A stretch of 64,000 nt of DNA from Promethearchaeota archaeon (GTDB lineage: Archaea; Asgardarchaeota; Lokiarchaeia; Sigyniarchaeales; SOKP01): the NCBI GenBank assembly GCA_019894855.1, contig JAGXNS010000004.1, positions 1-64,000 of the forward strand. Reading direction: 5' to 3'. Shown piece by piece: positions 45,922-58,643 of the stretch. The translations under genes were made by a program, and so were the position numbers. The notes beneath the pieces are model-generated. The model did not search any database. It worked only from the letters and a program-made list of their open reading frames with translations, and had not been told where the DNA came from. Each line of letters begins with the position of its first letter. Within the stretch, counting starts at the first letter, position 1.

Positions 45922-46563
45922 ATGATGGAGAACAAATCAAAATATCCAAACTTAGATGAAGATTCTATAAAAAATATAATTAAATCGGGTACAACCACAG
46001 TAGGGATAATTGTAAAGGATGGCGTTGTAATCGGTACTGAATCTCAAGCTACTGCAGGATACACTGTAGCCACCAAAGAAGCTCAAAAATTATTTAAAAT
46101 AAATGACTATACGGCAGCTACTATTAGTGGTGGAGTTGCAGATTGCCAATATGTTGTTAATCAACTACAAGCTCTATCAAGATTAAAACAAGTAGAGGAC
46201 GATAAAGTACCCGATCCACAGTACATTGCAAGCATGACAAGGAATGTTTTGTTTAGCGGAAGATCGTACTTCTTGTGTATGATGATCATAGGAGGTTTCT
46301 CACATAAAACTAATAACGGAATTCTTTATGGCGTTGATTTATTAGGAACTTTATATGAAGAAGAAAAATTTATTTCGTTTGGTTCAGGTTCCCCATTTTC
46401 ACTAGGTGTGTTAGAAGCTGACTGGAAACCAAATTTGAATAAACCAGCAGGGATAAAATTGATAGAAACAGCGATATCAAGCTCTCGAGAAAGAGATGCT
46501 GCTTCTGGGTTTAAACTTCAAATTTGCTCTATAGATAAGACAGGATTTAAACAAGTTCAATAA
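45922..46563 (+). CDS. psmB: proteasome beta subunit
   Basis: GTTTVGIIVKDGVVIGTESQATAGYTVATKEAQKLFKI; SSSRERDAASG. Confidence 0.92.
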   Translation: MMENKSKYPNLDEDSIKNIIKSGTTTVGIIVKDGVVIGTESQATAGYTVATKEAQKLFKINDYTAATISGGVADCQYVVNQLQALSRLKQVEDDKVPDPQYIASMTRNVLFSGRSYFLCMMIIGGFSHKTNNGILYGVDLLGTLYEEEKFISFGSGSPFSLGVLEADWKPNLNKPAGIKLIETAISSSRERDAASGFKLQICSIDKTGFKQVQ

Positions 46564-46575
46564 ATTGTTAAAAAT

Positions 46576-47073
46576 TTATCTTAAATATTCATTACTACTT
46601 ATTATTAGTTTTATTTGCGTAAGCTTGTTATTCAGATAAATAAACCCATTCATCTCTTTGTTCCGGGAATCTACAATAATCCAAATTAAGTGTGTGAATT
46701 TCTTTAGACCGCTATTATGGTAATATTTCATGTTATTTTTATCTGTGCTACTAGGGGTTGTTCCAGCAGGATGAGAGTGGAGAATAGCTATTAATTTCAA
46801 GTTTTCATTTTTCATTAAATGTTCTGAAAGCTCTAAAATTTTCTGATCGTTATCTAATATAAATGATATAGTGCTTCCTATACTGGATTCTATACAATGA
46901 AAAGAAGTGCTATGGTAGTTGTAACTAAAATTACCGTTATCATTGTTAACTTCTTGAATATTCCCTAAGATAAAACCGCTAGCTTCGTTAGGGGACACTA
47001 ATTTAATACAGGTACCGATTTTTTCAACTATGGTATTACTGATATAAAAAACTATATCTTTCTCATATCTCAT
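46576..47073 (-). CDS. JAMM/MPN metalloprotease
   Basis: EASGFILG and AILHSHPAGTTPSSTD (HxHP...SxxD). Confidence 0.8.
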   Translation of the reverse strand: MRYEKDIVFYISNTIVEKIGTCIKLVSPNEASGFILGNIQEVNNDNGNFSYNYHSTSFHCIESSIGSTISFILDNDQKILELSEHLMKNENLKLIAILHSHPAGTTPSSTDKNNMKYYHNSGLKKFTHLIWIIVDSRNKEMNGFIYLNNKLTQIKLIISSNEYLR

Positions 47074-54239: not shown

Positions 54240-57200
54240 TCAAATCTTTTCGTCTTGCTTTTTTTTGAAAAGAAGGTATCCAAGAACTACTAAAGTCAAT
54301 ATAATAGGAATGATTATAGTAACTGGACTAATTTGGAAAATATAATATGAGATCGTGATTAGTGAGGCAAAGAATGCAATTATTGAGCCATACTGGCTTG
54401 TAAAATTCTTTAAACGCCTTATAAACATATACACGCGGAAATTCATTTTCTTTATAACTTCTAATTCTTTATCATCAAGCATACTCAGAACTTCTGGATT
54501 TTCGTAATATAAACCAATTTGAGGATCGTATTTCCCTTTCAATTTCCCAGAACTAATTAGAGAAATCAGGCGTTTTTGAATTAGGGGTTTCTTTATCTTT
54601 AATTCATTCTGCAAAAAACTTAAGGTAAGGAACTCGTTTGCCACAGCTTTGATTGCAAATTCCACGTATGATTTCACAATTAATTCCTCTAATGTCTTAA
54701 CTTTCTCTCTTAGAATTTCATTAAACTCTAATACGAATCGGTCAAAATCATCAATGATGTGCTTATTTTTAGTTTCAAAATCATTAGAATTTCTATTAAA
54801 TTCCTTATACATATCTTTAATTCTTCTATTTGTATTCCTAATCTCTTGCTCGATATACTTATGTTTTTTATTTACTTTTAGATAAGCTCTCTTAAATTGT
54901 TCTGTTTCAATATAATCTTCAACCCTCGCCTGTAAAGTTCCTAATAATTGGCTTAAATGGATATTATTATTGGTAATCGTTAGTACTAATTTACCTCGAT
55001 CTGTCTCAAACCTTATAGATTTTATCCTATCATTTATTGCTTGAACTTTCTCTTCTATCATTGCTTTGATCTCATTTTTATGAGAGACATAAAATTCTCT
55101 CGCTTCGGTCTCAAACTTCCTTGTTTCATAAGATAAACTAATAGTCGATTTCAATTTATTTTCGATTTTTTCGTCAACTTGCCTTAGTCTAATTATAATA
55201 TTCTCCTTTCTGCTTTCAAGAATCTCATTCATCTTAATAAGGGAGTCAGTTCTCACTACATCGTAGGAAGTTTTAGTCAATTGATTCTCAAATTCGATTT
55301 TTACTGTATCTAGTAAATCGATTATAAATATTTGTAAGTCTTTAAAAAGAATCAAATTTTCTTTAATATTCAAAATCGCTTTCTCATTATTGTTTATAAC
55401 CGCCTTTAGACCATTAATCAGTTCCATGTTTTCTAATCTATTCTCATCAATATTTAACTCTTTTGTCTTAGTGTTGTATTGGACAGTAATAGATTCCTTC
55501 AAATCGCTTAAATCATTAATTCTATTTTGAACTTCTAGCAAGTTTACTCCAAGAGTTTTGTTTTTTATACACGAATCGTATAGGGCTAATAATTTTCCTA
55601 CTGCTTCCTGGGTTTGCTTAATAATTCTATTTTCTGTGAAATTTTTTAACTCTCTATTCTTATAATAAGTTTCAGTGTGAACTATAAGTTCTTTTTTATC
55701 TTCAAGTAAATCACCTTGCAATTTAGACACCTCTATCATGCCTTTAATTCTCGGAATTATCACTCTACATTTGAGTTTAAGCTTATCGGCCAATTTTTTA
55801 AGACTAATTGTGTCTGTATGCTCCTCCTCACTCATTAATATAATCTCTTGAGAAATGATGTCATTAACATATTCTTCCTTTAGTTTATCAACTTCCTCAG
55901 TAAGAAATACTTTAAATTTCTCCCATTGTATAATTTTTATCGAACTTTCATTAAGATCTGTGATAATTGCTTTTAGATTTGTTATCTTATTAGAAAAAAC
56001 CTTGTTACTTTCGTTAAAATCAATTAAAATTTTATCAAAACCACTAATAACATTTGGGATTTCATTTACTTTGGTTTGATCAATGTTTAACCTGTAATTT
56101 TCTAACTTAGCCTTAAAATTTTGGATAGTATCTGAAACAAAACTATCAAAATCCTCAACACCTGCCCTGTTTCTTTCTTCTATAACCTTTTCTTTTAAAA
56201 ATTGCTCCTGTTCGGCTATGAACTCAATGATATTTTCTTCCAGACTGTCAAGCTTTTCATTTATATATTTATAAAGCGGAAATAGTTTCTGTTTAAAAGA
56301 AGTGTTCTTTTTAACCATAGCTTTTAAGCTTTGAATTTCATTTGTTTTTTCTTTTAGTAAATTATCCGCTTCCTTCTTAATAATCTTAAATGCTTCTTGA
56401 TATTGATTTTGAGTGGCTATATGTTTAACTTCCTCTTTAATTTGAAGAATTCCTTCCTGAATTTTATCCCTAACATTTCCTATCTGTCTATTTAAATTGT
56501 TGAAAAACTGAAAACCAATAGTGTAATCAGCAAAAATCAAATCAAAGTTTTCTTTAAAATTAATCCATTTCTGTATTATTTTCTTATGGTTCTTTGCGAT
56601 CTTTTTCTCCTTTGTTGTAATCTGATGCGAAACCTTGTAGATAACTGAATCGTATTTGCTTACGACTTGGGCTATTTTATTAAACGCATTTATGATAAGA
56701 TTTAATTTTTCTTCATCATAACCCTTTTCAAGAACCTCTATAATGTAATTTCTAAAAGAATCTATCTCGCGATTTACCTGATCCTGAATATCGTATATTT
56801 TATTATCTAATTCGTCTAAGATATTGCTAAATTTTTTTAAACTTTCCATCTCTTGGATCTTTTCTAGGAGATAATTATTTAATTCACCTAAACGCTTTTG
56901 TAATAAAGAATAAGACTTATTCCATTGAGATATTTCAGAACCTAAAGCAGCTTGTAGGTTGATGTATACAAGTTCTTGATTGAAAGATGTTTCTATGTTT
57001 TTATTAAGAAAATCTGCTTCCATTAATGAATCTCGCAATACAAACTTCAACCTTTCTTTAGCGAAATCAACTTCGTCTATCATAAGATAGGATTCTATTT
57101 CTTCTTTAATTTGAGGAATCGTGTTCTTAAGCTTCAAAGTCATATTGTAAATATCGTTTTTAATTTCCTTCAGTTTAGCTTTTTCTTCGAAAAGTCTTTC

Positions 57201-58643
57201 GCTGTTAATTTCCTTATCGGAAATAATTATGTTTTTGTACAATACATCTAAACAAAAGTAAAATTTTGTTTTAAATAAATATGCCTTTTTTGATCTAATC
57301 TCTCCTTCAAAAAAATGGTTGCTTATTAAGTCATAGATGATTGGAAAGATATCTTCTTTTAATTTCACGGGTTCCTGTTGGTAGGAACTTTTATATTTTT
57401 TGTAAATATCCGAAAGTGAAATGATGCTATTATTACCTAGCTGGTCATAGACTTCTTGGATAATTTTCTTTTTGTCTTGACTTAAATTTAGTAGGTAATC
57501 GTTAAATTCAAATGAAATATCGATATTCTTCAAAGTAAACATATAATTGAGGTTAATATACAATACAATCTCTTCTACTCCATGACTTAAGCCAAATGTA
57601 GTTTTTATCTGGTTTAAATCGATAAAATTATCTGTTTCTAACCGCCTAAATACAACTCTCTCGATTTCTTCGATAAAACGATTCCAGATAACAGATAATA
57701 AAATTACTAACTTAGTAACATTTCTTAACGCTACTAAGTTCCAACCTTCTTTATCTTTCAAAAATGAGTCTAATTTTTGGGTGATAAAAGAATAAATTCT
57801 TGCTGGGTTGTAATCTATCAGCCACGAATAAATATCGAAAAGGTTTACACACCAAAATGTAGATGCAATATCTCCTCCAATTGATTCTATGACAAAGCCT
57901 CCATTTGGCTGTTGAAATTGATAGAAATGCTGAATTTCTTTATCTTTTACGTCTGAATCTAAATCAAAGAACTTTAGACTGAGAAGTTTAAAAATTAGTG
58001 ATATATCTTTCTTTCTTTCTCTTAAATATTGACGGAATTGCTCTTTGAAAACCCTTACATCAACACCGATAAGCATGAGACTTTCAACTACATAGTAAAA
58101 AGTCTCCCCCATAGGTCCTTGAATACATAATTCGCATTGTTTGTCAAGGCAATGTAAGAATCCATTATTTCTTTTATGATCGTAAATAAAGTTTTTAATT
58201 TTTTCAATAATTATATCTTGCCCTTTAGACGCTAGGTATTGTTGGAGCACTCCTAATAACTCTAAACTTGCTAGAGCATAGTATGTTGACCAAATATCAG
58301 GTGTTTTTACTGAATAAGGCGATGCTTTAAATCCCAATTGATCTTTTTCAATTATCTCAACTTCACAATTTTTTACATATTCTAAGAAAACTTCACTGTG
58401 GTCGTCCACTTTTTGTTTGATATACTTCCTCAGAAGGAGAAACCAAAAAAGATCCTCTAAATTTAAAGATGATTCTTTAATTAAGTTTCTATTATAATTT
58501 TGATATAATTCTAAAACTTTATTGTAATTACTTAAGTAGAAATTGCCGATATCCTTTCTATTTGCTAAAACAAAAGATTTAAAAGGCTCCTTTTTGAATT
58601 CCGTAATGTACGGGTATGCTGTCTTGTTCTCTACATTTGTCAA
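54240..58643 (-). CDS. giant coiled-coil protein with N-terminal alpha/alpha-toroid-like region, wHTH-like segments and C-terminal TM
   Basis: N-term YYALASLELLG...NGGFVIESIGGDIASTFWCVNLFDIY; long Lys/Glu heptads; wHTH-like TLSFLQNELKIKKPLIQKRLISLISSGKLKGKYD; C-term IIAFFASLITISYYIF...IIIPIILTLVVLGYLLFKKK. Confidence 0.8.
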   Translation of the reverse strand: MTNVENKTAYPYITEFKKEPFKSFVLANRKDIGNFYLSNYNKVLELYQNYNRNLIKESSLNLEDLFWFLLLRKYIKQKVDDHSEVFLEYVKNCEVEIIEKDQLGFKASPYSVKTPDIWSTYYALASLELLGVLQQYLASKGQDIIIEKIKNFIYDHKRNNGFLHCLDKQCELCIQGPMGETFYYVVESLMLIGVDVRVFKEQFRQYLRERKKDISLIFKLLSLKFFDLDSDVKDKEIQHFYQFQQPNGGFVIESIGGDIASTFWCVNLFDIYSWLIDYNPARIYSFITQKLDSFLKDKEGWNLVALRNVTKLVILLSVIWNRFIEEIERVVFRRLETDNFIDLNQIKTTFGLSHGVEEIVLYINLNYMFTLKNIDISFEFNDYLLNLSQDKKKIIQEVYDQLGNNSIISLSDIYKKYKSSYQQEPVKLKEDIFPIIYDLISNHFFEGEIRSKKAYLFKTKFYFCLDVLYKNIIISDKEINSERLFEEKAKLKEIKNDIYNMTLKLKNTIPQIKEEIESYLMIDEVDFAKERLKFVLRDSLMEADFLNKNIETSFNQELVYINLQAALGSEISQWNKSYSLLQKRLGELNNYLLEKIQEMESLKKFSNILDELDNKIYDIQDQVNREIDSFRNYIIEVLEKGYDEEKLNLIINAFNKIAQVVSKYDSVIYKVSHQITTKEKKIAKNHKKIIQKWINFKENFDLIFADYTIGFQFFNNLNRQIGNVRDKIQEGILQIKEEVKHIATQNQYQEAFKIIKKEADNLLKEKTNEIQSLKAMVKKNTSFKQKLFPLYKYINEKLDSLEENIIEFIAEQEQFLKEKVIEERNRAGVEDFDSFVSDTIQNFKAKLENYRLNIDQTKVNEIPNVISGFDKILIDFNESNKVFSNKITNLKAIITDLNESSIKIIQWEKFKVFLTEEVDKLKEEYVNDIISQEIILMSEEEHTDTISLKKLADKLKLKCRVIIPRIKGMIEVSKLQGDLLEDKKELIVHTETYYKNRELKNFTENRIIKQTQEAVGKLLALYDSCIKNKTLGVNLLEVQNRINDLSDLKESITVQYNTKTKELNIDENRLENMELINGLKAVINNNEKAILNIKENLILFKDLQIFIIDLLDTVKIEFENQLTKTSYDVVRTDSLIKMNEILESRKENIIIRLRQVDEKIENKLKSTISLSYETRKFETEAREFYVSHKNEIKAMIEEKVQAINDRIKSIRFETDRGKLVLTITNNNIHLSQLLGTLQARVEDYIETEQFKRAYLKVNKKHKYIEQEIRNTNRRIKDMYKEFNRNSNDFETKNKHIIDDFDRFVLEFNEILREKVKTLEELIVKSYVEFAIKAVANEFLTLSFLQNELKIKKPLIQKRLISLISSGKLKGKYDPQIGLYYENPEVLSMLDDKELEVIKKMNFRVYMFIRRLKNFTSQYGSIIAFFASLITISYYIFQISPVTIIIPIILTLVVLGYLLFKKKQDEKI

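Follow-up and report, generated by a model that had tools for sequence, protein, structure and literature searches.

What does a single long gene on the minus strand of a 64,000-nucleotide stretch of Promethearchaeota archaeon DNA (contig JAGXNS010000004.1, assembly GCA_019894855.1; this whole stretch is called the window below) contribute to its cell? Its 1467-residue product joins domains in a combination that the initial annotation did not recognise and that also proved unfamiliar to us, as no description of this architecture was found in a literature search of open-licence papers. We are confident of the architecture and of the family assignment: a toroid head of the prenyltransferase-beta type is followed by two winged helices, two long helical arms that each end in a further winged helix, and a C-terminal membrane hairpin. 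With a probability of about one half, we take the protein to be a membrane-anchored cytoplasmic scaffold or tether that is specific to Lokiarchaeia (Promethearchaeia), with a toroid head that is non-catalytic and docking sites of the PCI type. The features are as follows (wHTH, winged helix-turn-helix; AF2, AlphaFold2).

54243-58643, minus strand: whole gene, 1467 aa, a single uninterrupted frame, stop codon at 54240-54242, probable TTG start
57729..58526, minus strand: alpha/alpha toroid, residues 40-305, about six helical hairpins, prenyltransferase-beta/terpene-cyclase superfamily (PF00432, AF2, Foldseek)
58125..58154, minus strand: putative zinc knuckle H-C-x4-C-x2-C in a toroid loop, residues 164-173 (conserved residues)
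57480..57728, minus strand: winged helix 1a, residues 306-388 (AF2: strand 340-342, helices 343-350 and 356-366, strand 371-375)
57210..57479, minus strand: winged helix 1b, residues 389-478 (AF2)
55854..57209, minus strand: helical arm 1, residues 479-930, 452 aa (AF2 helices, length table)
55644..55853, minus strand: winged helix 2 (wHTH2), PCI type, residues 931-1000 (AF2; PF01399 above cut-off here in orthologues of genomes G037 and G041)
54690..55643, minus strand: helical arm 2, residues 1001-1318 (AF2, length table)
54459..54689, minus strand: winged helix 3 (wHTH3), PCI/UFL1 type, residues 1319-1395 (AF2; PF01399 up to 30.5 bits in orthologues; ranks UFL1 homologues)
55644..56186, minus strand: duplicated helix-plus-wHTH module, first copy, residues 820-1000 (hhalign)
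54459..55016, minus strand: duplicated helix-plus-wHTH module, second copy, residues 1210-1395 (hhalign)
54243..54404, minus strand: two transmembrane helices with a short near-neutral loop and a KKKQDEKI tail, residues 1414-1467 (Kyte-Doolittle)

Compared with an orthologue of 93% identity, the gene shows 65, 44, and 164 base changes at the first, second, and third codon positions, respectively (164 of 273 at the third). As this bias coincides with recurring orthologues of nearly equal length, the frame is a real coding sequence and not a chance reading frame, and judging from such comparisons the gene is under purifying selection. Orthologues of 1467-1511 aa occur in dozens of genomes. A protein search gave 60 relatives, 48 of which were orthologues of nearly equal length, and a pattern scan of GTDB genomes gave 68 orthologue loci.

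The toroid-like N-terminus that had been proposed from the sequence was borne out. The window copy matches the prenyltransferase model PF00432 above its cut-off (E = 1.7e-6, 28.1 bits versus 26.5), and 22 of the 26 family members scanned match this model, the best of them with E = 1.4e-21. The AF2 model of residues 1-490, built from 59 sequences (predicted local distance difference test, pLDDT, 90; predicted template modelling score, pTM, 0.86), has 12 helices in the range of residues 40-338, and two winged helices come after them. All 16 Foldseek matches of this head in the PDB below E = 1e-3 are beta subunits of protein prenyltransferases, mostly of Rab geranylgeranyltransferase (RabGGTase), with the best being 6o60_B (RabGGTase-beta, E = 2.1e-5), and a profile search of PDB sequences matched the same family weakly (E = 0.007).

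These closest structures raise the question of whether the head is an anchored enzyme that transfers or cyclises isoprenoids on protein or lipid, with a conserved H-C-C-C/D cluster as its metal site. D116 of the toroid aligns with the zinc aspartate of RabGGTase-beta, and the cluster is conserved with substitutions typical of metal ligands: H164 is present in 59 of 59 sequences, C165 and C170 are each present in 57, and of the 57 rows with both cysteines, 56 have C, D, H, or E at position 173, which gives a family consensus of H-C-x4-C-x2-[C/D]. However, the zinc triad D-x-C...H of the prenyltransferases is absent. W118 replaces the zinc cysteine in the PDB profile alignment, most members have W, Y, F, or H at this position, and no D-x-C-[YW] motif was present in the 59 aligned or the 26 scanned sequences. 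The class II terpene cyclase acid motif DxDD occurred in only 1 of the 59 and in none of the 26. The Cys/His knuckle itself is missing from two orthologues that are otherwise intact. A search for a PPTA alpha subunit returned only a background of tetratricopeptide-repeat-like matches, with one frame just above the cut-off in one of nine genomes and similar matches in control genomes. A catalytic protein prenyltransferase was thus rejected because the zinc triad is absent and there is no clear alpha subunit, and a terpene cyclase was rejected for lack of the DxDD motif. One paper notes that counterparts of both prenyltransferase subunits are widespread in archaea, with no sign that they are active as heterodimers (PMC4915359). 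According to the same paper, archaeal Rab-like proteins lack C-terminal cysteines, which also speaks against a prenylating head. Taken together, we regard an anchored enzyme as very improbable. The toroid head would rather be non-catalytic, and its H-C-C-C/D cluster may be a structural zinc knuckle with a putative bound metal.

The three wHTH segments listed in the initial annotation all lie on AF2-predicted wHTH folds, and a fourth (residues ~306-388) had been missed. Structure prediction thus recovered both toroid and wHTH folds, and the result named in advance as refuting the initial annotation, a lack of both, did not arise. The last two winged helices belong to a recurring unit: hhalign matched residues 820-1000 to residues 1210-1395 with a probability of 96.8% (E = 2.9e-10, 159 columns). 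By this profile match, the two regions are an internal duplication, each copy closed by a winged helix of the PCI/UFL1 type. Many orthologues exceed the cut-off of the PCI model PF01399 at wHTH3, and some do so at wHTH2 (30.5 bits in G010; 29.7 and 22.8 bits in G041), and the window's own copy reaches 13.3 bits, below the gathering score. In a Foldseek search with the C-terminal part, nearly all of the top 50 matches were subunits of the 26S lid, the COP9 signalosome, or eIF3, none of them significant (best E = 0.013). Winged helix 1b resembles a different group, as the C-terminal winged-helix pair of 468-aa HEAT-repeat proteins from another Asgard family (L120:1995-3398 and L121:1305-2690) is similar to residues 333-472.

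As wHTH folds commonly bind nucleic acids, the four of them could belong to a membrane-linked organiser that binds DNA or RNA and ties the nucleoid or ribosomes to the membrane, and the recognition helices of the window copy are indeed lysine-rich. The better-assigned winged helices, however, match PCI/UFL1 models, which are mainly protein-interaction modules, and DNA-binding HTH families matched only single members among the 26 scanned, so that we hold a role in nucleic-acid organisation to be quite unlikely.

The relation to UFL1 deserves closer attention. In a pool of 1333 frames plus reversed decoys, with UFL1 loci over-represented, the profiles of wHTH2 and wHTH3 ranked Asgard UFL1 homologues directly below their own family and its paralogues, and no reversed decoy was among the matches listed. 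When a 24-row wHTH3 profile was run against the whole genome, UFL1 was not among the matches at E <= 0.01. Because of the enrichment of the pool and this whole-genome result, we claim the link between wHTH3 and UFL1 at the superfamily level only. The 1467-aa protein itself is not a UFL1, as the UFL1 model PF09743 gave no match on it at E <= 10 and the true homologue in the same genome is a separate frame of 851 aa (G000:C41; PF09743 E = 5e-15). Such separate UFL1 genes of ~800 aa (790-851) with PF09743 scores above the cut-off are found in 32 of 40 related genomes. Membership in DDRGK1/UFBP1 (PF09756) was likewise rejected, since the model reached a sub-threshold E = 0.04 in one orthologue only and had its best matches in that genome in the UFL1 gene. 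The previously proposed UFL1-type plan therefore stands for the last two winged helices and falls for the protein as a whole.

A functional parallel would be a membrane scaffold whose PCI-winged-helix platform brings together the parts of a modification or quality-control complex, possibly jointly with the separate Asgard UFL1. UFL1 and DDRGK1 are reported to originate in Asgard archaea without UFM1 (PMC10183829), and the eukaryotic UFL1/UFBP1 complex consists of PCI-like winged-helix repeats that are anchored to the membrane through UFBP1 (PMC9627666), which fits the type of wHTH2 and wHTH3. On the other hand, no gene linkage to UFL1 was seen, and genomes of one family (f4) keep UFL1 without a full-length copy of the toroid protein. 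In view of these findings and the failed membership, a scaffold of this kind seems rather unlikely.

The regions between the winged helices had been described as ~1000 residues of coiled coil. Long helical arms are indeed present, and "long helices" is the safer term, as the second AF2 model (residues 476-1467; pLDDT 82, pTM 0.38) is usable for local folds and not for the global arrangement. It contains winged helices at 945-988 and 1338-1380, the terminal membrane helices, and helices of up to 72 residues; in this monomer model the arms consist of several helices of 30-72 residues, and a long single helix precedes wHTH3. Arm length is nearly constant. Orthologues of the same order have an arm 1 of 449-456 residues, against 469-481 in the remaining orders of the class, and arm 2 comprises 312-321 residues across the class; typical values in the window's order are about 455 and 318 residues. 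Sequence identity, in contrast, falls to 9-19% in arm 2 and the distal half of arm 1, while the lengths vary by a few per cent even at 14-19% identity. Relative entropy is ~1.9 for the head, wHTH3, and the anchor versus 1.4-1.5 for distal arm 1 and arm 2, and the segments with the highest conservation are the toroid, wHTH1a, wHTH3, the pre-membrane segment, and the hairpin. Database scans of the protein added little: an NCBIfam scan gave no useful match, weak Pfam matches (Methyltransf_PK, DUF4351, Gp44_C, and Apolipoprotein) were dismissed as helix-composition noise, and the one match of a PDB search with the single sequence (CheA, E = 0.1) was dismissed as a chance coiled-coil match.

The C-terminal anchor proposed earlier, with two transmembrane helices and a basic tail, is present. 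In all anchored orthologues that could be compared over the full C-terminus (L033 and L034, with partial C-termini, are outside this comparison), there are two hydrophobic segments, the loop between them has 14 residues or fewer and a net charge of -1 to +1, and the flanks of the hairpin are mostly positive. By the positive-inside rule, these flanks suggest that both ends of the protein are cytoplasmic. A reading of the N-terminus revealed no apparent signal peptide.

Conservation across Asgard archaea had been proposed as a check, and at full length it proved to be confined to Lokiarchaeia. A family profile search gave some match in 121 of 231 genomes of the phylum, and full-length matches were confined to families of one class (f1, f2, f3, f5, f6, and f7). 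Outside Lokiarchaeia, these 231 genomes contained no full-length orthologue and only matches to the toroid, a helical stretch, or a winged helix. Within the same order, family f4 had no full-length copy in its five genomes. The named orthologue records are all lokiarchaeal and include Prometheoarchaeum syntrophicum MK-D1, Lokiarchaeum ossiferum, and Harpocratesius repetitus (class Promethearchaeia); both cultured lokiarchaea, MK-D1 and L. ossiferum, carry a full-length orthologue. As side aspects, two orthologues (L085, i.e., G031:C262, and G027:C338) are split into two frames or contain one in-frame TAG, due to either assembly error or gene decay, and one toroid match (G055:C5:1041428-1041724) lies inside a giant protein, an open frame of 14439 aa from another genome of this class.

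Three paralogues of 1239-1338 aa (L042:2843-6856, L043:5749-9564, and L044:4210-7926), which form one clade in the head tree (support 100/99), retain the toroid, the winged helices, and an arm with one winged helix, and carry a conserved C-terminal domain of ~150 residues (GFLTAIQSF) in place of the anchor. A sub-threshold match to Fuz_longin_1 (E = 0.0073) in one of the three gives a lead that this domain may be longin-like. The L042 toroid also bears extra CxxC zinc-ribbon-like insertions. A comparable layout is found in Asgard proteins of 980 aa (L157:2687-5626 and L158:647-3586; also in MK-D1), which have an N-terminal repeat head, a helical arm, and a single winged helix with a weak hhalign match to the duplicated module (31-42%), but their head consists of HEAT-like repeats instead of a toroid and they end in a beta-sandwich-like domain instead of an anchor. 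Toroid proteins of ~1060 aa (L117:1468-4656, L118, L119, L136, G010:C52:29182-30231, and G034:C4:35977-37236) start with a membrane segment, carry a prenyltransferase-like toroid that seems to be extracellular (PF00432, 2.9e-37), and end in an ATP-binding cassette (ABC) ATPase domain. Their genes adjoin another ABC ATPase and, in several genomes, lie ~8-25 kb from the 1467-aa gene. We rejected them as paralogues, as they are secreted-type toroids fused to ABC ATPases and stand outside the family.

The anchor, the constant-length arms, the RabGGTase-beta-like head, and the paralogues with their possible longin domain, a fold associated with trafficking, together invite comparison with a golgin-like tether, in which small GTPases or membranes would be caught by a head held out on a long arm. 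As the monomer model shows the arms as several helices and not as one continuous coiled coil, and as the longin assignment is sub-threshold and limited to one paralogue, we give such a vesicle or GTPase tether little credence. A bolder version is a long shot: a dead RabGGTase-beta-like toroid on a fixed-length, anchored PCI-winged-helix arm might capture small GTPases or cargo, with the soluble longin-ended paralogues as a second arm, and would form a prokaryotic tether system parallel or ancestral to the eukaryotic membrane-identity machinery.

We therefore return to the membrane-anchored scaffold or tether with docking sites. Here, both ends of the protein would lie in the cytoplasm, the C-terminal hairpin would tie it to the cell membrane, and the two arms of near-fixed length would keep the compact head, made up of the toroid and two winged helices, at a defined spacing from that membrane. 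The PCI/UFL1-type winged helix at the end of each arm would offer a protein-docking surface. The toroid would lack the prenyltransferase metal site, either through loss or from the outset, and could bind a protein partner or a hydrophobic peptide, braced by the separate structural zinc knuckle. Rigid spacing and docking are thus the presumed roles of the arms and their winged helices.

Several points weigh against this interpretation. The extended shape is conjectural at the arm model's pTM of 0.38, constant arm lengths can also occur in a compact fold, and the non-catalytic nature of the head is argued solely from missing motifs. The neighbouring genes offer no clue to function. The gene stands by itself. 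A 2-hydroxyglutaryl-CoA dehydratase D-like pair lies in divergent orientation on one side, and on the other a Hef-type DEAD helicase is convergent at a distance of 52 bp; this helicase adjoins the gene in 48 of 76 loci and is the sole frequent immediate neighbour. Elsewhere, the window contains a proteasome beta-type subunit beside a Prok-JAB protein (45922-46563 and 46576-47073) and a JAB/MPN protein (PF01398) with a helical tail (1109-2308), and a JAB gene recurs downstream of the 1467-aa gene in several relatives.

According to one published BLAST search, Asgard archaea yielded no homologue of Rab geranylgeranyltransferase (PMC10933270). The significance of the family is that a conserved Asgard toroid, whose nearest solved relatives are RabGGTase-beta subunits, is joined in a predicted cytoplasmic, membrane-anchored protein to winged helices of the kind found in UFL1 and the proteasome lid. 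Its presence in MK-D1 and L. ossiferum makes localisation and partners testable. If the protein does organise other proteins at the membrane, it would be a candidate part of the cell architecture that distinguishes these archaea.

Among known systems, RabGGTase beta (PF00432; 6o60_B, 3dss_B) is the best fold match, sharing the alpha/alpha toroid of ~12 helices and repeat motifs of the QxxxGGF and D-xx-ST-Y/F type. The lokiarchaeal head differs in lacking the D-x-C...H triad, in its other Cys/His knuckle, in having no alpha subunit that we could find, and in its fusion to winged helices, arms, and an anchor. With UFL1/UFBP1, the protein shares several PCI-type winged helices and attachment to a membrane, which in eukaryotes is provided by UFBP1, whereas UFL1 has no toroid, long arms, or transmembrane hairpin. 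The PCI subunits of the 26S lid, the COP9 signalosome, and eIF3 (PF01399) likewise have a winged helix preceded by helices and dominate the Foldseek list of the C-terminal part, but only the winged-helix end matches, the preceding helices are modelled as long arms instead of a PCI helical bundle, and the protein is membrane-anchored. Golgin-type tail-anchored tethers combine a long helical region, a C-terminal membrane anchor, and an N-terminal head. The likeness of the lokiarchaeal protein to them is one of layout, and it differs from golgins in its helical hairpin anchor, its arms broken by winged helices, and its globular toroid head.

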